Shown: piece by piece, positions 17,667-60,991 of the stretch
Position numbering within the stretch: position 1 is the first letter of the stretch
Layout of the letters: each line of letters starts with the position of its first letter
Source: a virus
Reading direction: 5' to 3' (one strand)
Virus record (IMG/VR): IMGVR_UViG_3300044846_004119
Span: 113,136 to 177,135 of that record
DNA length: 64,000 bases
Translations under genes and position numbers: made by a program
The notes under the pieces: model-generated
What the model saw: the letters and a program-made list of their open reading frames with translations, nothing else
Databases searched by the model: none
What the model was told of the DNA's origin: nothing

Positions 17667-18860
17667 ATGATAAAAATTGAATATGTATGGTTAGATGGAT
17701 ATGCACCAGAACCTAATTTAAGAAGTAAGATAAAAGTAATTGAAGGTGTGATTACTGATTTAACAAAAGTACCTGAATGGAACTTTGATGGTTCGTCAAC
17801 AAAACAAGCCGAAGGATATAGTTCTGATTGTATATTAAAACCCGTTCGAATATATCGTGAGAATGATTGTTATAATAAAGTGTATGTGTTTTGTGAGGTA
17901 ATGAATCCTGACGGAACACCACATGAATCAAACCATAGAACCATGTTAGGTGACGAGGTTAATGATATGTGGTTTGGGTTTGAACAAGAATATTTTATTC
18001 AAGAGGGTATTGGGAAATCAATATTAGGATTTAATCGAGGTCATATTGAAGGACAAGGTAAATACTATTGTGGTGTCGGTAGTAATGTTGTTGGACGACA
18101 ATTAGTTGAAGAACATATGGATTTATGTTTAAATATGGGGATTGAAATTACCGGAGTTAATGCTGAAGTTGCTTTGGGACAATGGGAATATCAAGTGTTT
18201 GCTAAAGGTAAAATTAAAGCTGGTGATGATTTATGGATGTCAAGATATTTGATGGAGAAATTATCTGAAAAATACGGATATCATATTAACTACCACCCAA
18301 AACCTATTACTGCGGGTGATTGGAATGGTTCGGGTTTACATACAAACTTTTCAACAAAAAAGATGAGAGAAGTTGGGGGTGAAGGTTATTTCAAAACACT
18401 ATTCAATGCGCTTGAGTCAAGAAAAGAACAACATATTGAAGTTTACGGTTCAGATAATAATCTTAGATTAACTGGTAAACATGAGACACAATCAATCCAT
18501 AAATTTAGTTGGGGGGTAAGTGACAGAGGAGCTTCAATTAGAGTTCCAAGGTTAGTTGCAGAATTATGGAAAGGGTATCTTGAAGATAGACGGCCAGCAT
18601 CCAATGCAAACCCATACGAGGTTATCAAAGCAATTAGTGATACTATTGATATGGCTGACGAATTATCGGTTACATTAAGTAATATGTTTTCAAATGTTAA
18701 TACTAAAAACTTTGATGATTTAAAATCTAAATACAATGGAATACCAACCGCAGAAGAACTTTTGGAGGAGTATAAAAATGATGATGATTATGAGTTATCT
18801 GAAAAAATGATGGAGTCTAAAGCAAATGTTAAACCAGAGTTTATTAATAACAAAAACTAA
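17667..18860 (+). CDS. Glutamine synthetase, type II (eukaryotic-like, GSII)
   Basis: 397 aa. Family signatures appear in order: EWNFDGSST near 33-41, the metal-binding FGFEQEYF near 100, NAEVALGQWEYQ near 168-179, the ATP-site HPKPITAGDWNGSGLHTNFS near 210-229, and NNLRLTGKHETQSIHKFSWG with RGASIRVPR and LEDRRPASNANPY toward 260-315. It makes glutamine from glutamate, ammonia and ATP in the cytoplasm. The catalytic residues appear intact and the length is normal for GSII plus a short acidic C-terminal extension. As a phage-borne metabolic gene it may support nucleotide synthesis. Confidence 0.95.
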   Translation: MIKIEYVWLDGYAPEPNLRSKIKVIEGVITDLTKVPEWNFDGSSTKQAEGYSSDCILKPVRIYRENDCYNKVYVFCEVMNPDGTPHESNHRTMLGDEVNDMWFGFEQEYFIQEGIGKSILGFNRGHIEGQGKYYCGVGSNVVGRQLVEEHMDLCLNMGIEITGVNAEVALGQWEYQVFAKGKIKAGDDLWMSRYLMEKLSEKYGYHINYHPKPITAGDWNGSGLHTNFSTKKMREVGGEGYFKTLFNALESRKEQHIEVYGSDNNLRLTGKHETQSIHKFSWGVSDRGASIRVPRLVAELWKGYLEDRRPASNANPYEVIKAISDTIDMADELSVTLSNMFSNVNTKNFDDLKSKYNGIPTAEELLEEYKNDDDYELSEKMMESKANVKPEFINNKN

Positions 18861-21085: not shown

Positions 21086-22234
21086 ATGAAAGGAATGAAA
21101 CTTAATGAGTCTGAATTAAAAGACAGGATATTTCAAATTTATAAAGAGGAACAATATAAGATTCTTGAAGAAAAATGGAACAAATTATCTAAAGAAGATA
21201 AAATATTTGTTTTTGAATTTGCAAAAAAAATATACACTGAACAAACCAAGTTAATAAAAGAATCTAAATGGTATAATACTCTTGGTGATGTTGTCGGTAT
21301 CTTTGACCCAACAGGTATTGTTGATATTGTTAATGGTATTAGTTATTGGAGACAAGGTGATAAATTATATGCAATTCTTTCATTTGTTTCGGCAATCCCT
21401 TATTTAGGTGACCTTATCGCTAAACCTGTCATTGGTGTTATGAAATTAGGTGGTGGAGCCGCTAAAGCGTTTAAAGCAGCAACTTTAACTGGCGATGCCG
21501 TTAAAATTGCTGGTACGGCAAAAAGAGCTGGTGGACCTATTGCTAAGATGGTTGAGACTGCTCCAACTTGGGGTGAGAAATTAGTGACCGCTTTAAAAGG
21601 GTCTATTGGCCGAGTTCCTTTGTTAGGTTCTGGCTTAGTAAAAGTTATTGAAGAGTACGTCCAAATTTTTGGTAAAGCCGGAAAAGAAATGAAAGCGGGA
21701 ACTGAAATTGGTAAAGGTATTGTAAAAAGTGAAAAGGCGTTAAGCGCTGTTGAAAAAGAAGAATTATTAAAACAAATGAGTAAAGACCAATCTTTCAGAG
21801 GGTTTAGAGATTTAGGCACTGGAAAAAATAGTTGGTTAAGTTTTATGAAATCGGATGCAAGTTTAGGCGCTAAATTTTATGCGGGGGTTCCTAGAATTTT
21901 TGGTGGTAATCCTGCAACAAGGTCTTTGATGAAAAGAACTAAATTTTATGCGGGGTTTTTAGATTGGTTAGGTGTTGGAAATTTTGTTGGTCCTGATGAG
22001 CTTGAAAAAATGTACCCTGACGTTGAAAAACAGTATGAACAATACGCTCAATTACCCGAATCACAAAATTTATGGAATCAGGAGTTTGCCTCAGGACAAA
22101 CAACACAAACTACTGTAGCGTCCGAGTTACCATCATTGTCTACTGCAAAACAATCAACATCAACTGCGGTTAAAACAGATGCATTCACATCATTAATTAG
22201 TTCACTATTAGGTGGGGGAAAAGCGTTAGTATGA
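21086..22234 (+). CDS. Virion-like protein with hydrophobic Gly/Pro domain
   Basis: 382 aa (ATG at 21095 is an alternative). The N-terminus carries the tag-like KLNESELKDRIFQIYKEEQ. Residues 68-125 (GDVVGIFDPTGIVDIVNGIS, then SAIPYLGDLIAKPVIG) form a hydrophobic pattern frequent in large phage structural proteins and reminiscent of pre-toxin domains that help proteins cross membranes. The C-terminus is Ser/Thr/Gln-rich. It overlaps the DHH gene by 4 bases (ATGA). A role in ejection or membrane penetration is plausible but unproven. Confidence 0.8.
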   Translation: MKGMKLNESELKDRIFQIYKEEQYKILEEKWNKLSKEDKIFVFEFAKKIYTEQTKLIKESKWYNTLGDVVGIFDPTGIVDIVNGISYWRQGDKLYAILSFVSAIPYLGDLIAKPVIGVMKLGGGAAKAFKAATLTGDAVKIAGTAKRAGGPIAKMVETAPTWGEKLVTALKGSIGRVPLLGSGLVKVIEEYVQIFGKAGKEMKAGTEIGKGIVKSEKALSAVEKEELLKQMSKDQSFRGFRDLGTGKNSWLSFMKSDASLGAKFYAGVPRIFGGNPATRSLMKRTKFYAGFLDWLGVGNFVGPDELEKMYPDVEKQYEQYAQLPESQNLWNQEFASGQTTQTTVASELPSLSTAKQSTSTAVKTDAFTSLISSLLGGGKALV

Positions 22235-23637
22235 AAAACTTACTAAAAGAAAGTGGTATCAGAGATATCAATAAGTTAGCTAAACGTTATTCTAAAGCTG
22301 AAATTTATTTTCACCAAGATTTGGATGGCGTAACAACCGCACTTGCGATGAAAAAATACCTTGAAGACAATGGTATTAAAGTTGTTGATGCTCACGTTAT
22401 TCAATACGGGGATAAAGAGTTCTCGGTAAAGAAGAATGACGCTCAAGGTGATATTATGCCAGTACTTGTGGATTTTGCTCATGGTAAACCAATGTTTGTT
22501 ATCCATACAGACCACCACGATAGACAAGCGGGTGCGGAAGACACTAAATCAACTTCATTTAGAAGTTCACGTTCAAATGTTGAAACAATATCCCAGGTGG
22601 TATCACCTAATGAAATATTCTCACCTGAAGATATTCAATTAATATCTATGGTTGACTCAGCTAATTACGCGGCGAACGAAGTAACGGTTGACCAAGTAAT
22701 AAATTATTTATTCAAATTAGATAAAGATAAATCTTTGGGTAAAAACAAAACTGCCTTAGGTTTAGTTGCTAATAAGTTATTATTGGCGTTTAAAAATAAA
22801 CCAGGGTTTTTAGAAGAACTTGTTATGGTTGGAACCCCATCACTTATGAATCTTGTTACTAACATAAAAAGAATCATGATTGAAAAAGGTTACGCTACCG
22901 TACCCGAATTACAGAAAAACAAAGAAGGTTATATTGACCAAATGAAAAACCACCATAATGTTAAAATTGAAGGTAACATTATTGTTCAATACGGAGGTGG
23001 TAGTATGATGAAACCTGGTTCTTATGATAGATACACGCCCTTCAAAAATAACCCTGACGCTGATTTCTTAGTTATTGCTTGGCCATTAGGTTTAGTTCAA
23101 GCGTCTTGTAATCCTTATAAAAAAGAACGTGAGTTAAAAGGTGTTAACTTAGGTGAGATTGCTCAGGAAGTACTTGCTAAATGGGAGACTCAATTACAAG
23201 AAAGACAAATACCGTTATCAACAATTAAATGGATTTCTGAAGGTTCAAAAGGATTTGGTCCTGAATCAGTTGGGTTTACCTTTAAAGATTTTGTTGCGTT
23301 ATATGGTAACAATTTTAAAACAATGGAGAATGGTAAAAAACATTTAACTCAAATTGGTAAAATGATGGAAATTCCTTTTACTGAATTAAGCGAGGAAGAA
23401 ATGAAAATGTTAGATGGTGTCACAATTAATGCTTGGGATTTAATTCAAGCTAATAGTGGTGGACATAAATGTATCACGAACATTTCGGGGCTTAGTTATT
23501 TAGGTAGGTCTAAAAGACCGCCAGATGGAAAGTACAAGTATAATGCTGAGTCAGATGATTCTCCTTATGTGAAGTTTACTAAAATGGTTCAAAAAGAATT
23601 GGTAAATGTGTTACAGTCTAAAATTAATGAAGGTTAA
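22231..23637 (+). CDS. DHH-family phosphoesterase
   Basis: 468 aa. IYFHQDLDGVTTALAM (about 26-41) supplies the first metal aspartates, VLVDFAH another, and HTDHHDRQ (near 92-99) is the DHH motif. NSGGHKCITNISG (near 410-420) matches the GGH motif of the DHHA1 domain. Enzymes of this family are RecJ-type exonucleases, nanoRNases or cyclic-dinucleotide phosphodiesterases; the exact substrate is not clear. The N-terminal MKNLLKESGIRDINKLAKRY is tag-like. Coupled to the upstream virion-like gene, it may be packaged. Confidence 0.9.
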   Translation: MKNLLKESGIRDINKLAKRYSKAEIYFHQDLDGVTTALAMKKYLEDNGIKVVDAHVIQYGDKEFSVKKNDAQGDIMPVLVDFAHGKPMFVIHTDHHDRQAGAEDTKSTSFRSSRSNVETISQVVSPNEIFSPEDIQLISMVDSANYAANEVTVDQVINYLFKLDKDKSLGKNKTALGLVANKLLLAFKNKPGFLEELVMVGTPSLMNLVTNIKRIMIEKGYATVPELQKNKEGYIDQMKNHHNVKIEGNIIVQYGGGSMMKPGSYDRYTPFKNNPDADFLVIAWPLGLVQASCNPYKKERELKGVNLGEIAQEVLAKWETQLQERQIPLSTIKWISEGSKGFGPESVGFTFKDFVALYGNNFKTMENGKKHLTQIGKMMEIPFTELSEEEMKMLDGVTINAWDLIQANSGGHKCITNISGLSYLGRSKRPPDGKYKYNAESDDSPYVKFTKMVQKELVNVLQSKINEG

Positions 23638-24098: not shown

Positions 24099-24138
24099 AA
24101 ACCCTAACAGTGTAAAAATTGTTAGGGTTTTTAATTTT
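24099..24138 (+). terminator. Strong intrinsic terminator abutting the smpB promoter
   Basis: AAACCCTAACA (24099-24109) pairs perfectly with TGTTAGGGTTT (24120-24130), followed by a T-rich run. Its 3' arm occupies the -33 region of the promoter at 24146, so terminator and promoter are interlocked. Confidence 0.85.
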
Positions 24139-24145
24139 TAATCAC

Positions 24146-24153
24146 TATCTTTG
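24146..24153 (+). promoter_or_regulatory. TATCTTTG box, four bases before the smpB ATG
   Basis: TATCTTTG matches TAnnTTTG and is followed by exactly four bases (CTTT) and then ATG 24158. The -33 position holds TTAG rather than TTTG. Predicts a leaderless smpB mRNA. Confidence 0.65.
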
Positions 24154-24157
24154 CTTT

Positions 24158-24592
24158 ATGGGGACTCAAATCAGCATAATAAATCGTAAAGTTAAGTTCG
24201 AATATTCATTTATTGAAACTTTGATTGTTGGTATAAAATTGGTTGGTCCTGAAGTTAAATCAATTCGTAGTGGTAAAGTGTCATTAGTTGATGCTTATTG
24301 TTTTTTTATTGATAACGAGTTAGTAGTTAAAGGAATGAATATTCCAGAATATAAAATGGCGTATACTCACGAACCATTGCGAGATAGAAAGTTATTACTT
24401 AAGAAAAAAGAAATTGTTAAATTACAAAAAGAACTTGTTAAAGGATTAACATTGGTCCCATATAGAATATTTTCAAATGATAGAGGATTGTTGAAGATGG
24501 AAATAGTTTTGGGTAAGGGTAAAAAATTACATGATAAGAGAGAATCTATTAAAGAAAGAGATATTAATAGAGAAATTATGCGTGGCATTTAA
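24158..24592 (+). CDS. smpB: SmpB, tmRNA-binding protein
   Basis: 144 aa from ATG 24158 (the longer frame from 24119 would start upstream of the promoter). Conserved SmpB segments: NRKVKFEYSF, GPEVKSIRSGKVSLVDAYC, HEPLRDRKLLLKKKEI, GLTLVPYRIF, and the C-terminal GKKLHDKRESIKERDINREI. The canonical GTE is GPE here. SmpB brings tmRNA to stalled ribosomes. No tmRNA gene was recognised in the window, so it would use host tmRNA, serve an undetected phage tmRNA, or interfere with host trans-translation. Rarely reported in phages. Confidence 0.95.
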   Translation: MGTQISIINRKVKFEYSFIETLIVGIKLVGPEVKSIRSGKVSLVDAYCFFIDNELVVKGMNIPEYKMAYTHEPLRDRKLLLKKKEIVKLQKELVKGLTLVPYRIFSNDRGLLKMEIVLGKGKKLHDKRESIKERDINREIMRGI

Positions 24593-37019: not shown

Positions 37020-37397
37020 TTACCAAGTTTTACACGCCCAATATCTTGCTTTCCATCTTGGACCTGGTGTCTCACAATGATGACGAGCTCTAAATGATTT
37101 TCTTCTTGCTGGGTTATTCTTTTTTATCACCATTCTTTTTCCTTTAGCGGATTTACCGCCAAATCCAAAGTTTACTTTAACAACATTACCTTTGTCGTTT
37201 TTAACGTAAACTTTAGATTTCTTTACATCACCTTGCATTATCTTACCTAATTGAACTTTACGTCCTTGGTATTCTGCTTCCGTTAATAAGTCAGTAACTT
37301 TAAATTCAGTCTCCTCGACTGACCCATAAAAACTATCAACCATTTCTTTTAGGTTAAACAGTTTATTGTATTGTGATTCTGTGATTATGAATTTCAT
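37020..37397 (-). CDS. Tagged small basic Cys protein (ARRKSFRARH module)
   Basis: 125 aa. Tag KFIITESQYNKLF, then DLLTE (L-T-E at 38-40) exactly before the conserved module that starts EYQGRKVQLGK, continues GDVKKSKVYVKNDKGNVVKV and ends with NNPARRKSFRARHHC and WKARYWACKTW. This module recurs in T4-like marine phages as a small basic virion-type protein. The L-T-E before it fits prohead-protease processing. Overlaps the upstream gene by 4 bases. Confidence 0.85.
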   Translation of the reverse strand: MKFIITESQYNKLFNLKEMVDSFYGSVEETEFKVTDLLTEAEYQGRKVQLGKIMQGDVKKSKVYVKNDKGNVVKVNFGFGGKSAKGKRMVIKKNNPARRKSFRARHHCETPGPRWKARYWACKTW

Positions 37398-37750
37398 TTT
37401 TTTTCGTAGTGTGTCATTGTTGGTTTATTACCTTTCCCTATTTTAGGGTCTTTCTTTTCAGCTCTTCTCTTTTGTTGAGTCATTGCTTTTTTTTCATCTT
37501 TATCGTATGATGAAGCAATCTTTGGTGTTTCAGATGAAACTTTTTTTGAGGGGCGACATTTTGGATATGATTTTCCGTCGGCATCCTTTCTTCCACAAGG
37601 TGGATGTTTTCCGTCAACTTTTTTACTTACATCAACCCACTTCTCTTTAAACCAGTTTCTTAAATCTTCATTAACATTTTTGTTTTTTTCAGAAGTGGTT
37701 AAACCGTTAAGTAGTTTTTTGTATTGAGATTCTGTTAAAATAATTTTCAT
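37394..37750 (-). CDS. Tagged DUF5872-like basic protein
   Basis: 118 aa. Tag KIILTESQYKKLLNG, then NVNE (26-28) before DLRNWFKEKWVDVSKK, CGRKDADGKSYPKCRPSKK and a lysine-rich tail. The WVDVS...CGR...YPKCRP order is that of DUF5872-type proteins of phages and giant viruses. Basic and cysteine-containing, it could bind DNA in the capsid; inferred. ATG follows a minus-strand ATATTTATTA box by 3 bases. Confidence 0.82.
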   Translation of the reverse strand: MKIILTESQYKKLLNGLTTSEKNKNVNEDLRNWFKEKWVDVSKKVDGKHPPCGRKDADGKSYPKCRPSKKVSSETPKIASSYDKDEKKAMTQQKRRAEKKDPKIGKGNKPTMTHYEKK

Positions 37751-47264: not shown

Positions 47265-47582
47265 TTAATCCGCACCAGAGTCAGAATAGTAGTAAGTAAC
47301 CTCAACACCAAGTTTATTTTCAACCCAATCAGATATAATACTCAAAGTATTGTCGGAGTATAAAGAAAACATAGTGGCAACATCACTAGCAAAGTCGGAA
47401 CTAATAAAACAATCCTTATCACCAATGGAGTAATTCATAATAGGATTTTCACCATCTTCAATAGTTTGACGGGAAGTAAAGAACATATAACTATGGGATG
47501 TCTTTAATACATAGGGGTCTTTCATATCAAGATACTTAAATACGGACTTCTCCAATTGTGACTCTGTTATAATTAATTTCAT
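47265..47582 (-). CDS. Tagged paralog-family protein
   Basis: 105 aa. KLIITESQLEKSVFKYLD tag and C-terminal IISDWVENKLGVEVTYYY. One base separates it from the upstream family member, so they are co-transcribed. The middle is beta-rich and unlike its relatives in sequence. Confidence 0.75.
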   Translation of the reverse strand: MKLIITESQLEKSVFKYLDMKDPYVLKTSHSYMFFTSRQTIEDGENPIMNYSIGDKDCFISSDFASDVATMFSLYSDNTLSIISDWVENKLGVEVTYYYSDSGAD

Positions 47583-47983: not shown

Positions 47984-48523
47984 ATGAAAAAACTAAAACT
48001 ATTATTAAGTGCTCTACTACTATTGGGCACAACTAACACATTCTCACAAAACAACACAATTGAAGGCAAATGGAAAATGCTAAACTTCAACAATACGATG
48101 TTTATTTTTGAAAATGGTGAACGATTTACTTATTATTGTACAGCAGGAAATTGTGATTCTTTATACAACACCTTTGAGGCTGGAGATGGTAATCACATTC
48201 CAGGAACAGAAGAGTATACTGTGACTAACGATACAATTACTATGGATTACAATTTTGGAAATATCTTAGTTACTAGTATGGTATTTAGTTGTGAAGGAAA
48301 CATTGTCACATTCGTTGACCAAAATAATTTGAATTATGTTCGTTTAGGAACTAATCTTAACGACTGTAATTCGGCATCACTTACTGAACAAACTCAAAAT
48401 TCATTATTAATGGATAACAAATACTATGACTTATTAGGTAGAGAAATTAAAGACATAGCAACATACTCATTTAATTCTCTTTACATCAAGAACGGTAAAA
48501 AATATATTAAAACTCAACAATAA
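47984..48523 (+). CDS. Exported protein with type IX secretion-like C-terminus
   Basis: 179 aa. Signal peptide KLLLSALLLLGTTNTFSQ (about 1-22). A lipocalin-like beta domain (GKWKMLNFNNTMFIFENG) follows, and the C-terminus YYDLLGREIKDI ... SLYIKNGKKYIKTQ has the layout of T9SS sorting domains. It would be exported to the periplasm and possibly the cell surface by the host secretion system. It precedes a second such gene by 2 bases. Host-derived cargo is likely. Confidence 0.82.
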   Translation: MKKLKLLLSALLLLGTTNTFSQNNTIEGKWKMLNFNNTMFIFENGERFTYYCTAGNCDSLYNTFEAGDGNHIPGTEEYTVTNDTITMDYNFGNILVTSMVFSCEGNIVTFVDQNNLNYVRLGTNLNDCNSASLTEQTQNSLLMDNKYYDLLGREIKDIATYSFNSLYIKNGKKYIKTQQ

Positions 48524-48525
48524 CT

Positions 48526-49542
48526 ATGAAAAACTTAAAATTATTATTACTTACGTTACTAAGCGTAATATCTTTTAACTTGTTCTCACAGACACAAGTT
48601 TACACAACAAACACATCGGGACCAAACATTTGTGATGGTACTGCGGTATTGGACACAACCAATATTAATATGACATCAATCTATTGGCAAGGAATGGGGA
48701 TGATTATTAATCAGGGAAGTTACATTGTAACAAACCTTTGTCCTGGTACATACGGTGTTACATTCATCAGTAACGGAACTTCGGTTACATTAACGTTTAT
48801 CGTCATGGCAGGAAACTTTAATCCATGTTTAAACTTCGGTGGGTTTATAACACCAACAAACTCTGTTGACTCCACAACTTGTGATGGTATTGTAACGGCA
48901 ACAGTAACAGGAGGACAAGCACCATACACATATCTATGGAGTAATGGTAATATGCTTCAGACAATCGATAACTTATGTCCTGGCACATATTGTTGTTATG
49001 TTACGGACTCATACGGTTGCACAATAACATTATGTGATACAATAGGAGTTCAATCTTCAAACTACGGAGATACATTATATATAACAAATGCGGGGATGTG
49101 CAATCTTCCTATTGGTACATTAGTTTCAACAATAGAAGATTGTAAATTAAATTATAATTCTATTGGTGGTGCATTTATTTCAGATGTCACACCAATATCA
49201 GATACTCTTAATATTGTAATGGTTACTTGGATACTTGTAGATACTAATGGTTTTAATGTGTCTACACCTCAGTATCAAACATATACATATATTCCTACAG
49301 TAGGATGTTATAACTTACAATTAATTATATTTTGTTATCAAAAATCTATGAACTATAACACTATCGTTATAAATCAAAATTGGTACGTAGGGTTCGCAGG
49401 TATTAATGAACTATCAGGTAATGGTAAACAACTTATCAGTGTGGTAGATTTAATGGGTAAAGAAACAAATATACAACCAAACAAACATTTAATCTATACA
49501 TACAGTGATGGTTCTAAAGATATAAGATACATTAAAGAATAA
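48526..49542 (+). CDS. SprB-repeat surface protein with T9SS-like C-terminus
   Basis: 338 aa. Signal peptide LLLLTLLSVISFNLFSQ (to residue 22). One clear SprB-type repeat near 115-160 (GGQAPYTYLWSNGNMLQTID ... CPGTYCCYVTDSYGC) and a degenerate one near 30-80. The C-terminus (LISVVDLMGKET ... YTYSDGSKDIRYIKE) resembles a T9SS sorting domain. SprB proteins are gliding adhesins of flavobacteria; a phage copy may alter the infected cell's surface or derive from a host gene. Confidence 0.85.
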   Translation: MKNLKLLLLTLLSVISFNLFSQTQVYTTNTSGPNICDGTAVLDTTNINMTSIYWQGMGMIINQGSYIVTNLCPGTYGVTFISNGTSVTLTFIVMAGNFNPCLNFGGFITPTNSVDSTTCDGIVTATVTGGQAPYTYLWSNGNMLQTIDNLCPGTYCCYVTDSYGCTITLCDTIGVQSSNYGDTLYITNAGMCNLPIGTLVSTIEDCKLNYNSIGGAFISDVTPISDTLNIVMVTWILVDTNGFNVSTPQYQTYTYIPTVGCYNLQLIIFCYQKSMNYNTIVINQNWYVGFAGINELSGNGKQLISVVDLMGKETNIQPNKHLIYTYSDGSKDIRYIKE

Positions 49543-49845: not shown

Positions 49846-50415
49846 ATGAACCTACAAGAATCCATAAGAAGAGTATTAAGAGAGGAAACTCAGATACCTT
49901 CATCAATTAGAAGAAGGGTAAGCTATTCGGATATCGAAGAGGCGTTTCTAAATGCGTTAGATTCAATTGATTATTCTCGATTACACAATCAATTCTCACC
50001 AATAAAGAATATATCGTTAAAGACATTTGCTAAACTTGTTATAGATGAACTGAATATGTATTTAGAGCAAGACTATTTTAGTGACGAGAATAGGATTTAT
50101 TTTGATGACGAAACATATCACGAAAAAATTAGAGTTCCACTTATGAATTATTTTGGTAATAGAATTAAAAAAAGATATAATAGTGATGAATCAGAAGAAG
50201 AATTAACAGAAAAGTGGTCACAAAAGTATAAAAAATCTATCAACTGCAATAACCCAAAAGGATTTAGTCAAAGAGCTCATTGTCAAGGTAAGGGTAAACA
50301 TAGTGAGATGAAAGAAGGTGAGATAACCGAAAAATGTTGGGCAGGATATACTCAAAAAGGTATGAAGACAATGTTTGGTAAGAGATACCCTAATTGTGTT
50401 AAGAAGACAAAATAA
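49846..50415 (+). CDS. Tagged modular protein: RRR domain plus two Cys/basic modules
   Basis: 189 aa. Tag MNLQESIRRVLREE (L-R-E at 11-13), an RRRVSYSDIEEAFLNALD helical domain (about 20-110), then two small modules, each preceded by an (I/L)-T-E: ELTE (122) before KWSQKYKKSINCNNPKGFSQ and EITE (162) before KCWAGYTQKGMKTMFGKRYP. Both modules recur in marine phage proteins. The layout suggests a polyprotein cut into tag, domain and two mini-proteins. First gene of the MNLQE operon. Confidence 0.85.
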   Translation: MNLQESIRRVLREETQIPSSIRRRVSYSDIEEAFLNALDSIDYSRLHNQFSPIKNISLKTFAKLVIDELNMYLEQDYFSDENRIYFDDETYHEKIRVPLMNYFGNRIKKRYNSDESEEELTEKWSQKYKKSINCNNPKGFSQRAHCQGKGKHSEMKEGEITEKCWAGYTQKGMKTMFGKRYPNCVKKTK

Positions 50416-50416
50416 T

Positions 50417-51193
50417 ATGAATTTACAAGAAAACATACAAAGAATAAGAGAAATGATGATTTCTGAGGAGATGGTTCAATCAGACGCTTGGAAATCAATC
50501 AAACAAACTTTAGATATCCTTAAAGATAAGAAAAAAGTATTACTACTGAGTTGCTCCAACAGGTATAATTTTGATGAAAAGAATATAGACATACCAAAGT
50601 CTAAAATGATTGCAATGTACTTGAACGATGAGTTGGGTAATAAGTCAGTATTAATTGATGTCCCTGAACTTAAAATACTTCCTTGTGAAGGTAATGTATC
50701 AAGAAAAGATGGTAACTCTTGCGGGTTATTAAAAGCCGCTCTTAAAGATAAGAAAAAGAACCCATCAGGAGACCACAGATGTTGGGTTAACATTAACGAA
50801 CCTTCAGATGAGTTATGGAAGATATCAAAAGAGTTATTTGAGTCCGATGCGGTGATATTTTTTAGTTCAATAAGATGGGGACAAACAAATATGTATTACC
50901 AAAACTTAATTGAAAGATTAAATTGGTTGGAGAATAGACACACAACATTGGGTGAAGCCAACATTATCAAAGATATTGAAACAGGATTCATTTGTGTGGG
51001 TCAGAATTGGAATGGAGAAACCGTAACCAAAACACAAAAAGAAGTACACGAGTTTTATGGTTTCAAACCAAATAATGATTTGTATTGGAATTGGCAATAT
51101 ACCAAAGATAAGAATGACGAGACACAAAAATCATATAAAGCGTCACATAATAAATTTATAAAGGATACTAAACTTCCTGAAATAAAAGAGTAA
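50417..51193 (+). CDS. Tagged flavodoxin-fold (NADPH-FMN reductase-like) protein
   Basis: 258 aa from the ATG of MNLQENIQRIREMMISEE (I-S-E at 15-17). After the tag, KKVLLLSCSNRYNF (first strand and FMN loop) and FFSSIRWGQTNMYYQNLIER (second flavin loop, near 150-170) match flavodoxin-like NAD(P)H:FMN oxidoreductases. It would bind FMN and reduce flavin or a quinone. Its stop overlaps the next ATG by one base. Confidence 0.82.
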   Translation: MNLQENIQRIREMMISEEMVQSDAWKSIKQTLDILKDKKKVLLLSCSNRYNFDEKNIDIPKSKMIAMYLNDELGNKSVLIDVPELKILPCEGNVSRKDGNSCGLLKAALKDKKKNPSGDHRCWVNINEPSDELWKISKELFESDAVIFFSSIRWGQTNMYYQNLIERLNWLENRHTTLGEANIIKDIETGFICVGQNWNGETVTKTQKEVHEFYGFKPNNDLYWNWQYTKDKNDETQKSYKASHNKFIKDTKLPEIKE

Positions 51194-51852
51194 TGAACCT
51201 ACAAGAAAACATACAAAGGATTAAACAAATGATGGGACTTCTTACAGAAGAAGAAAAGTCTTATGAAAGTAAACCAATTGTCTTTGTTGGAACTGCGGGT
51301 AGTGGGAAATCTACTACCGCTAAAGCTTTGTCCGAAAAATTGGGAATACCACGTATTGATGTGGATGAAATGGAAGGTAGTGAAGAATATGAAAAATTGT
51401 GTAAGGATGAACCTGGTGTGGAAGTAAATATAGTAAGAACTTCAGATGGTCATAATTATGGTGAAACAAATGATGAATACAAAAGATGTGTTCTTACTAA
51501 ACTATTGGATAAATATGGTAATGATAAAGTAATTTTTGATATAGGTGGGGACAGTATAAAAAATCCTGACTTATTAGAAGATTTACCAAATCTATTTGTT
51601 TTTGGATTGCCAACAACACCTGAAGACGATAGACCATATATCCAATTTCTAAAACAAAGGAGAATTAAAAGGGCAACAGAAATGGGTCAAACTAATTTAG
51701 AGGATAAAACAAAAGACGAAGACATACAACAATCAATTAATAGTATTAGAGAATTTTATAAAGGTAAAACAACTATCAATCCACGTAATGAAAACGGGGA
51801 AAGTAAAACAACGGATGAATTAGTTGATGAGGTAATATTTAAACTTACATAA
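51193..51852 (+). CDS. Tagged P-loop kinase-like protein
   Basis: 219 aa. Tag MNLQENIQRIKQMMGLLTEE (L-T-E at 17-19). Walker A GTAGSGKST near 33-41 is followed by KALSEKLGIPRIDVDEM, as in shikimate-kinase-like small-molecule kinases. A lid-type basic region QRRIKRATEMGQT lies near 155-165. Substrate not known. The kinase domain starts just after the tag, as expected if the tag is removed. Confidence 0.85.
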   Translation: MNLQENIQRIKQMMGLLTEEEKSYESKPIVFVGTAGSGKSTTAKALSEKLGIPRIDVDEMEGSEEYEKLCKDEPGVEVNIVRTSDGHNYGETNDEYKRCVLTKLLDKYGNDKVIFDIGGDSIKNPDLLEDLPNLFVFGLPTTPEDDRPYIQFLKQRRIKRATEMGQTNLEDKTKDEDIQQSINSIREFYKGKTTINPRNENGESKTTDELVDEVIFKLT

Positions 51853-51853
51853 T

Positions 51854-52678
51854 ATGAACCTACAAGAAAACATATCAAGAATTAAATCAATGATGGGACT
51901 TCTTACAGAAGAAGAAATAAAACAAGAAATACCTTATGGTATCATAAAGTTTAGTGATAATAAAATATTGGTTGGTGATATGCACCAAACACCTTTAGAA
52001 CTACCTGATGAATGGGTTGAAAAAATTGTTAATGTTGCAAACGATAAAGGATATTATGGTGAAGGTATTGGACTTAAACATAATGAAGCGGTTACAAAAT
52101 CAAATTTTTATCATTTATTAAACCCAAAAAAGGAAATTGGTTCTTGGGATGAAAAATTAATTGAAAGTGGTGAAGTTCCGAAAGATAAAGAATATGTTTT
52201 TTTATATGCGTTATTCTCTAATCCAAAAGAGAATCGTAGATTAGAAAAGTTATTAAATAATATTGATGATGGTGATACCATATTTAATGTTCTTTTAAAA
52301 ACAATACCTGATTGGTCGGCGGATATGGGTAAATTTAATTTGGGTGAGAGAGAATTAACAAAGTTCCTTGAAGAAATTAGTGAACAAAATCATAATTTTA
52401 TTGAAATGTCCAAACAAGATGCAACTGAAGAGAATTTATCTAATTTTTTAGACGTAGGTGAAAAATTACAATGGCCATCAACAGAAAAAAATCCAAATTT
52501 ATGGCAACAATATCCTCATATGGCGGGTAAGTTTGCAAGAATAGCAACAACCATCAGAGACCAATTTTTAATAAACTCCGGACCTGGCGTTTATTTTGTC
52601 GGTGCGGGACATTTGAAAGATATTGTAGAAATGCCCGAAGGTAACAAATTAAATTTAATTGGAGGAGAAAAAATATGA
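51854..52678 (+). CDS. Tagged TraB/GumN-like protein
   Basis: 274 aa. Tag MNLQENISRIKSMMGLLTEE, nearly identical to its neighbour's at DNA level. ILVGDMHQTPLELP near 35-45 and GVYFVGAGHLKDIVEM near 245-260 carry the two GxxH motifs of the TraB/GumN/EreA superfamily, putative metal-dependent hydrolases. Overlaps the next gene by 4 bases. Confidence 0.75.
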   Translation: MNLQENISRIKSMMGLLTEEEIKQEIPYGIIKFSDNKILVGDMHQTPLELPDEWVEKIVNVANDKGYYGEGIGLKHNEAVTKSNFYHLLNPKKEIGSWDEKLIESGEVPKDKEYVFLYALFSNPKENRRLEKLLNNIDDGDTIFNVLLKTIPDWSADMGKFNLGERELTKFLEEISEQNHNFIEMSKQDATEENLSNFLDVGEKLQWPSTEKNPNLWQQYPHMAGKFARIATTIRDQFLINSGPGVYFVGAGHLKDIVEMPEGNKLNLIGGEKI

Positions 52679-53034
52679 ACCTACAAGAGAACATAAAAAG
52701 GATTAGAGAAATGATGAATCTGAATGAGTCAGATAAAAATAAGATTTGGTTATTAAGAAGACTGGAAACCCAAGATATAAAAGGTTACCTAGATGAACAA
52801 ATTGATAGTTTAACCAATCAAATTAGTCCTTGTGGTTATAGTACATTTGAAGATTATAAAGATATAATTTTTGAAGTTGCAGGAGCTAATTTTATTAATC
52901 ATTTTAGTGATGAACTTTATGTTAAACATGAAATGTCAGAAATTGAAGAAATTATATGGCACTTATTAACTAAAAAATATGGTAATTACCTTATAAATCA
53001 ATTTGACGGTAGAATCTGTGATGATGAGTATTAA
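52675..53034 (+). CDS. Tagged RRR-family helical protein
   Basis: 119 aa. Tag MNLQENIKRIREMMNLNES (L-N-E at 16-18) then LLRRLETQDIKGYLDEQID, an all-helical acidic domain related to those at 49846 and 53036. Function unknown; probably a free-standing copy of the repeated unit of the next gene. Confidence 0.75.
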   Translation: MNLQENIKRIREMMNLNESDKNKIWLLRRLETQDIKGYLDEQIDSLTNQISPCGYSTFEDYKDIIFEVAGANFINHFSDELYVKHEMSEIEEIIWHLLTKKYGNYLINQFDGRICDDEY

Positions 53035-53035
53035 T

Positions 53036-55030
53036 ATGAACCTACAAGAGAACATAAAAAGAATATTAAGGGAAGAAAGAAAACTTTCTAATTTTCTTAG
53101 AAGAAGATTGGAAATGTTGGATTATGAGGTTGAACGATTTAATAAATGGGGAGGTCATAATATATGTATATTTTTTAAAAGTGATATAGAATATTTTGAA
53201 ACAATTATGGAGAATGCAATTGATGCTATGTATTATAATTATTTTTCTCATATGGATGATAATTCAGGAGAATGGGCTCATGAATATCTTGATATGGTTA
53301 ATTATATTAGAGAAAACTACCAAAACAAAATAATGAAACATTACGATGATAATTGTGGTTCAGGTTTAAGTTCTATAAAAGAATCAACATTCTTTCGTAG
53401 AAGGGTTGATATGAGTTTAATAAATAAAGAATTCTTTGAAAATTTAAATATTATTACCGATGTTTATTTAAAAAAATATAATGAGGGGATAAATTTTAAT
53501 TTTGAAACCTTTGAACATCATCTCATACATTATCTTATGGATGGGTATCATGGTGAATTATCTAATGACGATTATGATAATTTCCCATATGATGAGGTTT
53601 ATAATTTTCTTTTAAATTATTTTCATGATAAGATTAAAGATAGATATGACACTTTTTTTGGTAATAAAATTAACGAATCAGTTGACAAATCTGAAGACAA
53701 AAAACTTAAGTTGGTTAAGGATATTATATATAACATGTTTGATGATATTATTGATTTAGAATATCACACTGAAAGAAATGAGATTATGGTTTACTATGAT
53801 AAACAAGAAGAATTAGAGAGTTCAGAAATATGTGATATTATAAATGATTTTACCGGTTTAAATGTTGTTCCTTGGTATGTTTATGATAAACGAGTAGAAT
53901 TAAAAAAGGAACCTGATTTTTATATAGATACTGAAAGATATGAGGAAGAGATTTATGAAAATTATAGTCCTGCTGGTAAAGAAATAACTCCAAACAAAAT
54001 TGTTATACATAAATCTAATCCTAAGTTCAGAGACAAGATTATAGAACAAGGATTAAAAGTTCGTGCTGGTGAATGTTATAAAATATATGCAGGATATGGA
54101 ACAAAATGTAAACCTGCAATATTTGCAACCAACTCAACAAATAAGAGATCGTGGTTTGATTCTACTTATGATGATGATGTTTGGGAAATTGATACAACAA
54201 TGATGCCCGAAATCAAATGGTATAAGGATAGACACTACGAATCAAGTAAAAAACATATAGTAACCTTTCAAGACATACCTAAAGAGGCAATCAAACTTAT
54301 TTATGAAGGTTCAGGTAAAGATGGGGGAATAATGGAATCAGTTGACAAATCTGAAGACAAAAAACTTAAGTTGGTTACAAAAATGATTCATAAGTTTTTT
54401 GATGATGTTAGTTTTATTGATATTAAAAAATATGAAAATAAACCAATGATAACAGTTTATTTTGATAACTATGAATATGCTGGTAATGAAGAGACTTATT
54501 TTGCCGAACAAATACAAAGTAAAATATATGAATATACAGGTATTAAACTTATTCCGTATTGGCACACTATTCAGTATAACACTGACGCAGATTTTCGTTT
54601 GGATGCCATTAAACTAAAATACGATAACGAAGGAAATGTTATAAACGAATCAGAAGATAAACTTAATATATTACTTAACCGTCACTTTGATGAGGTATTT
54701 GATAATCTAACATTGGTAATAGATAATGGTGGTTATTGTAGGTGGTTTTTTAATGATGAAGATATACCTGAAGATGACCATGATGATGATAGTGTTTTCA
54801 GTAAAAATCTTGCGGGTACTCTTTGGGTTCAGAACTGTGATGAGTTTAGAAAATTAGTTGATGTTAGGACTTATTTATCACTAAGCGCCCATGAGATTAA
54901 GATAAAATTAATGAGATACATAAACAATAGATACGAAGAACAATTCTTAGAAGGTTTTTTCGGAAAAGATGGATTTGTTAAAATTGTAGATAGTCATCAT
55001 TGTGTAGACTTATATGGTTTATTACCTTAA
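53036..55030 (+). CDS. Five-segment tagged protein with an ADP-ribosyltransferase-like domain
   Basis: 664 aa from the MNLQENIKRILREE tag (L-R-E 13). Every segment boundary has an (I/L)-x-E: IKE 116 before STFFRRRVD, INE 214 and IME 434 before SVDKSEDKKLKLV, INE 538 before SEDKLNIL. Segments 14-116 and 117-214 are RRR helical domains. Segment 215-434 ends with an ART-like region (VIHKSNPKFRDKIIEQGLKV, PAIFATNS, DVWEID, HIVTFQDIPKEAIKLIYEG). Segments 435-538 and 539-664 are alpha/beta. T4 Alt is a packaged ART processed in the same way; the parallel is inference. Confidence 0.82.
   Translation: MNLQENIKRILREERKLSNFLRRRLEMLDYEVERFNKWGGHNICIFFKSDIEYFETIMENAIDAMYYNYFSHMDDNSGEWAHEYLDMVNYIRENYQNKIMKHYDDNCGSGLSSIKESTFFRRRVDMSLINKEFFENLNIITDVYLKKYNEGINFNFETFEHHLIHYLMDGYHGELSNDDYDNFPYDEVYNFLLNYFHDKIKDRYDTFFGNKINESVDKSEDKKLKLVKDIIYNMFDDIIDLEYHTERNEIMVYYDKQEELESSEICDIINDFTGLNVVPWYVYDKRVELKKEPDFYIDTERYEEEIYENYSPAGKEITPNKIVIHKSNPKFRDKIIEQGLKVRAGECYKIYAGYGTKCKPAIFATNSTNKRSWFDSTYDDDVWEIDTTMMPEIKWYKDRHYESSKKHIVTFQDIPKEAIKLIYEGSGKDGGIMESVDKSEDKKLKLVTKMIHKFFDDVSFIDIKKYENKPMITVYFDNYEYAGNEETYFAEQIQSKIYEYTGIKLIPYWHTIQYNTDADFRLDAIKLKYDNEGNVINESEDKLNILLNRHFDEVFDNLTLVIDNGGYCRWFFNDEDIPEDDHDDDSVFSKNLAGTLWVQNCDEFRKLVDVRTYLSLSAHEIKIKLMRYINNRYEEQFLEGFFGKDGFVKIVDSHHCVDLYGLLP
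53675..53717 (+). repeat. 43-bp perfect direct repeat (second copy 54335-54377)
   Basis: The two copies are identical and 660 bases (220 codons) apart within one gene, encoding ESVDKSEDKKLKLV at the start of two segments. The flanking domain sequences have diverged, so the repeat probably reflects recombination at the segment boundary. Confidence 0.95.
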
Positions 55031-60529: not shown

Positions 60530-60991
60530 ATGAAGATTCTAATATCAAAAGAACAATATAGAATATTAGTGTTAAAACTTCTTGAAGGTTTGTTTGGTAA
60601 ACTTAGTATTACAACCGCCGAAGAAAAACAAAGATTAGGCCATGGTGATAGCAATTATCATGATATATTTGACGAAAATGGTGAGGAAATTGCGAATATA
60701 TGGATAAAAGGACAATCTAAAAATAAGGGATGTAAACGAGATTTGACCTTTAGTGTTGAAGCAACAGAACAAATGGAAAATTTCATACCTTATTATAAAC
60801 ATAAAATGTTTTCTAATGTTTTAATTGAATACGTTTATAAGTACACAGGTATTAAATGCGATTGTACTCAGTATGAATACAATTTTAATTATAAAAATAC
60901 GGATGATGATGATACTCCCTCATACTCATATACAAAACCTTACTCTAATACAAAAAAATATAACATAAAAAAGAAAAAGAAGATTAAATAA
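60530..60991 (+). CDS. Tagged paralog-family protein with basic tail
   Basis: 153 aa. KILISKEQYRILVLKLLEGL tag, beta middle, then a helix with EYVYKYTGIKCDCTQYEYN, the family ending, followed by an acidic Tyr-rich linker and a lysine tail (KKYNIKKKKKIK). The basic tail is unusual in the family and may contact DNA. Confidence 0.75.
   Translation: MKILISKEQYRILVLKLLEGLFGKLSITTAEEKQRLGHGDSNYHDIFDENGEEIANIWIKGQSKNKGCKRDLTFSVEATEQMENFIPYYKHKMFSNVLIEYVYKYTGIKCDCTQYEYNFNYKNTDDDDTPSYSYTKPYSNTKKYNIKKKKKIK

Follow-up and report, generated by a model that had tools for sequence, protein, structure and literature searches.

Predicted gp21-type cleavage sites ahead of small basic two-cysteine modules in a phage genome and its relatives

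Several small phage genes encode different basic, two-cysteine modules that are each directly preceded by a tripeptide of the form (I/L/V)-x-E; this triplet is conserved in relatives, matches both the cleavage rule of the T4 prohead protease gp21 and the site in relatives' capsid proteins, and is absent from module copies in phages without gp21. From sequence comparison we consider it likely that these genes encode precursors of internal head proteins that are targeted by an N-terminal tag and processed by gp21, with the modules retained alongside the DNA; cleavage, head retention, DNA binding, and ejection are what we infer.

The window analyzed here is the 64,000-nucleotide stretch at bases 113136 to 177135 of a 177,135-base virus record. 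Matches to the sheath, tube, and hub of a contractile tail of the T4-like type are present in this record, while gp21 and gp23 had no match in its 177 kb, the record being linear and probably partial. The phage is probably a T4-like aquatic virus of a Bacteroidota host. Two signal-peptide-like proteins at 47984 to 49542 have C-terminal ends that, by our own reading, resemble Bacteroidota type IX sorting tails, and the second carries a SprB repeat (PF13573, 32.6 bits); together these features indicate such a host. The window also encodes an SmpB (SsrA-binding protein; 24119 to 24592, TIGR00086, 153 bits) and a glutamine synthetase-like gene (17667 to 18860; PF00120, PF03951) that is possibly an auxiliary metabolic gene. 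The modules, designated CNN, CW, A, and D, are encoded as follows.

49846..50415, plus strand: 189-aa gene with tag MNLQESIRRVLRE, acidic middle (net charge -8), L-T-E, CNN module, I-T-E, and CW module
49846..49884, plus strand: N-terminal tag MNLQESIRRVLRE, ending L11-R-E13; predicted capsid-targeting propeptide (tag survey, AlphaFold helix)
50203..50211, plus strand: L-T-E (L120-T-E122) before KWSQKYKKSINCNNPKG; predicted gp21-type cleavage site of the CNN module
50212..50322, plus strand: CNN module (KWSQKYKKSINCNNPKGFSQRAHC..), basic, two Cys
50323..50331, plus strand: I-T-E (I160-T-E162) before KCWAGYTQKGMK; predicted cleavage site of the CW module
50332..50412, plus strand: CW module (KCWAGYTQKGMKTMFGKRYPNCVKKTK), two Cys, predicted beta hairpin
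37020..37397, minus strand: 125-aa gene with MKFIITE tag, leader, and module A
37278..37286, minus strand: L-T-E (L38-T-E40), predicted cleavage site; module A (AEYQGRK...ARRKSFRARH) follows
37023..37277, minus strand: module A (AEYQGRK..ARRKSFRARHHC..ACKTW), 85 aa, PHROG 7595
37394..37750, minus strand: 118-aa gene with MKIILTE tag, leader, and module D (DUF5872)
37667..37675, minus strand: V-N-E (V26-N-E28), predicted cleavage site; module D follows
37397..37666, minus strand: module D, DUF5872 (PF19197), 90 aa

An earlier note on this DNA had proposed that the four modules are set off by one type of tripeptide and released as small DNA-binding peptides inside the capsid, and the triplets it named (L-T-E 122, I-T-E 162, L-T-E 40, and V-N-E 28) all lie at the residues and coordinates listed above. 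The two minus-strand genes overlap by four bases, and only that at 37394 to 37750 matches PF19197 (46.5 bits, above the Pfam gathering cutoff of 27.5). Every module has exactly two cysteines, and all are strongly basic (net charge of +5 for CNN, +8 for CW, +20 for A, and +14 for D), so nucleic acid binding is plausible on the basis of charge; the modules could equally well be effectors that act on the host. The term "small peptides" suits CNN (∼40 aa, 4.6 kDa) and CW (27 aa, 3.2 kDa), whereas A and D, if released, would be proteins of ∼10 kDa, nearer to T4 IPI-IPIII. Searches of Pfam, PHROGs, and NCBIfam recovered no peptidase domain in the window's module genes. An AlphaFold model of the 189-residue protein has a helix in the tag (residues 3 to 13), a linker with pLDDT below 50 directly before I-T-E (residues 150 to 158), and CW as a beta hairpin predicted with confidence (pLDDT 87 to 91), consistent with an exposed site adjoining the folded CW module. 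For the module A gene the prediction is poor (mean pLDDT 44.7), with no usable fold.

Module boundaries in relatives

Relatives were collected from four IMG/VR scans and three phage-record searches, which yielded about 80 related loci per module; the counts given here are of nonredundant copies that have 10 or more residues ahead of the module, the IMG/VR relatives being partly redundant. A hydrophobic-x-E triplet falls exactly at the boundary in 93 of 94 copies of A, 61 of 61 of D, 124 of 138 of CW, and 24 of 27 of CNN. When the 20-residue upstream stretches were shuffled, the mean counts were 5.1, 3.6, 5.3, and 0.9, and the maxima 12, 10, 11, and 5, respectively, which speaks against chance LxE in glutamate-rich linkers. 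Other registers mostly hold the pattern in 0 to 10% of copies, the exceptions being -11 for A (0.23), -5 and -6 for CW (0.31 and 0.11), -7 for CNN (0.15), and -10 for D (0.78, because the D leaders are alike). Apart from the site, the leaders are mutually unrelated, forming up to 68 clusters: at 40% identity they fall into 19 (A), 7 (D), 68 (CW), and 19 (CNN) clusters, with the site borne by 18, 7, 59, and 17 of these. This likeness among D leaders means that conservation of their site in relatives is in part shared descent. Module A is conserved at P3 and P1 (entropy of 0.72 and 0.00 bits) and variable at P2 and P4 (2.22 and 2.70 bits). The idea of a single tripeptide type setting off four basic cysteine modules therefore holds in both the window and its relatives, beyond the shuffle expectation, and the triplet is present upstream of most homologs rather than missing from them.

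Most of the CW exceptions are shifts rather than losses, with 11 of 14 holding hydrophobic-x-E 1 to 4 residues further upstream (LEE↓KKNCW, VNE↓AGQKCW, ITE↓AKKCW, and ISE↓DSPCW; here and below the arrow marks the predicted cut or the corresponding position). Three CW copies have no site at all, namely those of Aegir and S-TIM5, both without a gp21 match, and that of locus L191.

The relatives contain additional modules (KDACY, AAWT, GTGKKP, NPAQQAAIA, and others), and regular-expression cores for ten modules recovered at least 47 architectures, from single modules to six-module chains. KDACY, GTGKKP, and NPAQQAAIA are often preceded by hydrophobic-x-E; cyanophage AAWT has glutamate at P1 in 29 of 29 copies and an off-consensus histidine at P3 in 14 of 29, so some junctions are off the rule. 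Several cyanomyovirus chains belong to a family annotated as T4-GC 119, near terminase genes. A genome-contig scan for the CNN+CW stretch found 5 loci in MAGs, probably on phage contigs, and among 398 Pseudomonadota genomes DUF5872 had three weak matches, one of them above the cutoff. On a Rickettsiales MAG contig (L523, 110 to 409 and 1423 to 1716, minus strand), module D and AAWT-like proteins are encoded by neighboring but separate small genes.

The prohead protease and phages without it

T4 gp21 cleaves after L/I-X-E (PMC9026906). Of 43 module-bearing records, 18 match both gp21 (PF03420) and the capsid protein gp23 (PF07068) above the cutoff; these are for the most part the longer contigs, and their gp23 proteins mostly read NQAS(H/F)LINE↓A or a near variant at the expected T4-type maturation point; the capsid protein of Prochlorococcus phage P-SSM2 reads NFLSE↓A. 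Because the capsid site of the relatives matches the triplets, the head-maturation protease would be expected to recognize them as well. Among T4-like or cyanomyovirus isolates bearing modules, gp21 is present in 10 of 11, the exception being S-TIM5.

Comparison of phages with and without gp21 offers what we regard as the strongest test of predicted proteolysis. In 10 isolates without a gp21 match, which are podo- and siphophages of Pelagibacter, Roseobacter, Prochlorococcus, and others, module A or D is free-standing, with neither leader nor triplet. Four of these copies begin exactly at the predicted P1' of T4-like copies (Aegir gp13, M↓AKYQGR; CRP-902, M↓ATYKGK; HTVC023P, M↓SLKKWF; P-SCSP2, M↓SLRRWF), and those of HTVC027P, HTVC106P, C72C1, and DSL-LC04 have 4 to 8 additional residues. 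Module A was checked in two phages with gp21, and both have the site, C48C1 as LELTE↓AEYQGK and HTVC008M as LPLEE↓AEFQGK. Pfam gives no function for DUF5872, and its leader and protease site occur only in T4-like phage copies among those examined. The module gene of P-SCSP2 sits between the scaffold and capsid genes, and that of Aegir lies two genes upstream of a head-morphogenesis gene. In Roseobacter phage CRP-6 (L307:1333-2022), the C-terminal part of module A is fused to a domain that, by our own reading of the sequence, looks to be of the prohead-protease type.

The register shifts, taken with the loss of the triplet where gp21 is missing, speak against the triplet belonging to a fold common to the modules. 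The release that the earlier note had supposed, read here as a T4-type prohead protease cutting at (I/L)-x-E, is a prediction that these comparisons support strongly, because it fits the gp21 site rule and the relatives' capsid-protein site, because leader and triplet are lost without gp21, and because the triplet is retained through register shifts.

N-terminal tags and virion proteins of homologs

T4 internal proteins carry targeting propeptides of 10 to 19 residues whose processing needs residues 8 and 10, and the propeptide of T4 Alt has 7 residues (PMC9026906). Putative tags ending in hydrophobic-x-E are found here as MNLQENI..RI, MKxIITE, and cyanophage MK(S/T)FKQF. The first begins six consecutive window genes with differing payloads (49846 to 55030), a putative cargo array in which the gene at 49846..50415 is followed by five others.

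50414..51193, plus strand: MNLQENI-tagged gene, tag ends I-S-E; no Pfam or NCBIfam match for the payload
51193..51852, plus strand: MNLQENI-tagged P-loop kinase-like gene, tag ends L-T-E19
51854..52678, plus strand: MNLQENI-tagged gene, tag ends L-T-E19
52675..53034, plus strand: MNLQENI-tagged small gene, tag ends L-N-E18
53036..55030, plus strand: MNLQENI-tagged gene, ∼664 aa, tag ends L-R-E13

An IMG/VR pattern scan recovered the MNLQE tag on 113 nonredundant ORFs with 52 payload clusters, and 108 of the 113 have I/L/V-x-E at residues 12 to 23 (shuffle mean 38, maximum 51). In cyanophages, proteins of 42 to 51 aa consist of MKSFKQFQE or MKTFNKFQE and a CNN module (MKSFKQFQE↓SWSNKYKK..); the T4 IPI record starts MKTFKEF, with ITE↓A at residues 17 to 19, and this resemblance is a direct link between the CNN module and a targeting sequence of the T4 style. 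The cyanophage tag has F rather than I/L at P3, and the site rule may be broader in these phages. Both MNLQENIQRIKQMMGLLTE and cyanophage MKSFKQFQE are candidate capsid-targeting tags. MKxIITESQ has ITE or LTE at residue 7, which would fit the T4 Alt propeptide, and similar N termini without LxE are present in the window, leaving it either a tag or a mere domain start. Many window proteins of ∼100 to 150 aa (47265 to 47582, 60530 to 60991, and others) start MK(L/I)II..(Q/K)L, have no evident LxE, and could be tagged cargo or a domain family. The protein at 22231 to 23637 begins MKNLLKESG, in which LLKE fits the tag pattern, and has a DHH phosphoesterase match too weak to reach the Pfam cutoff.

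Packaging in the virion, a further element of the original proposal, gains support from published proteomics of homologs. S-CREM2 gp160, which contains D, CW, and KDACY modules with the sites LEE↓KKNCW and ISE↓GKKDACY, was identified by proteomics of virions (7 unique peptides, covering 13.1% of the protein), and the nearby gp154, gp155, and gp156 likewise belong to the virion (PMC10665884); gp154 starts MKNFSSFLTE↓A. A multimodule chain, S-SCSM1 ORF29, is deposited as a virion protein; virion proteins of this phage were identified by mass spectrometry (PMC9602691), and we infer that the label reflects actual detection.

Proposed processing and its alternatives

In the processing scheme that we favor, a short N-terminal tag would direct each precursor into the prohead core, and a gp21-type prohead protease would then cut after (I/L/V)-x-E, removing tag and leader and setting free the basic two-cysteine module or modules behind every site, with several small proteins or peptides arising from one gene. 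The freed modules would remain with the DNA and probably be ejected along with it. Most cleaved core fragments of T4 exit the head (PMC9026906), so very small peptides may escape retention. We entertain more tentatively a broader reading, in which T4-like aquatic phages possess a combinatorial peptide cassette of interchangeable basic two-cysteine modules that are released by gp21, packaged together with the DNA, and delivered on injection as a DNA-binding or host-acting peptide set, phages without gp21 using single genes instead.

A narrower form of the favored scheme, not exclusive of it, is that only the tag and leader are cut off and internal sites are used inefficiently, giving one mature protein per gene as in T4 IPI-IPIII. 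Most window genes have a single payload, and the T4 head proteins retained in virions mostly shed only an N-terminal propeptide (PMC9026906); we nevertheless think this restriction rather unlikely, given the two module-preceding sites in the gene at 49846 and the relatives' chains of up to six modules, most with a site. It is improbable that the triplet instead starts the module fold, for example as a helix cap, and stays uncut in intact multidomain virion proteins: the P1 glutamate is near-invariant even where P3 is off consensus (AAWT), and glutamate is common in these linkers, but the same P3/P1 pattern recurs in four unrelated modules with P2 and P4 free, the CW site survives 1 to 4 inserted residues, and modules of gp21-less phages have no triplet. 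That the modules belong to the tail or baseplate, or act outside the virion in host takeover, with LxE arising by chance in glutamate-rich linkers, is very improbable, since despite some cyanophage copies between tail-fiber and terminase genes the enrichment over shuffles is register exact, the P-SCSP2 gene lies among head genes, and the CRP-6 module is joined to a domain that we read as protease-like.

Among known systems, T4 IPI-IPIII and Alt are alike in their short N-terminal tag, L/I-X-E site, small payloads, and gp21-family protease (here in relatives), but our genes differ in having shuffled two-cysteine modules, frequently more than one to a polypeptide and mostly preceded by a site, and several tag families instead of one. 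The T4 core proteins gp22 and gp67 each receive several gp21 cuts, and their 2.5- and 3.9-kDa fragments kept in the head approximate CNN and CW in size (4.6 and 3.2 kDa); the putative products here are, however, basic conserved modules found in many genes rather than scaffold debris. Polyvalent proteins of phages and plasmids (PMC5512222) are similarly multidomain and injected, with shuffled domains and suggested processing, but they have an embedded metallopeptidase and large enzymatic domains, whereas a head protease is predicted to act here. The large multidomain protein with embedded peptidase that defines that group is not seen in the window's module genes; a putative N-terminal propeptide ending in (L/I)-x-E, as in T4-type internal head proteins, is. 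We found no prior description of these modules as protease-delimited cargo in the open-access literature.

The module system may thus extend the T4 capsid-targeting scheme. If this is true, unannotated genes of aquatic T4-like phages would be readable as packaged, protease-released cargo, the payload families of a single tag already numbering in the dozens, and their cleavage sites and mature products would be predictable from sequence. It would also supply a rule for spotting injected phage effectors in metagenomes and widen the T4 internal-protein system into a form of modular delivery in common aquatic phages.
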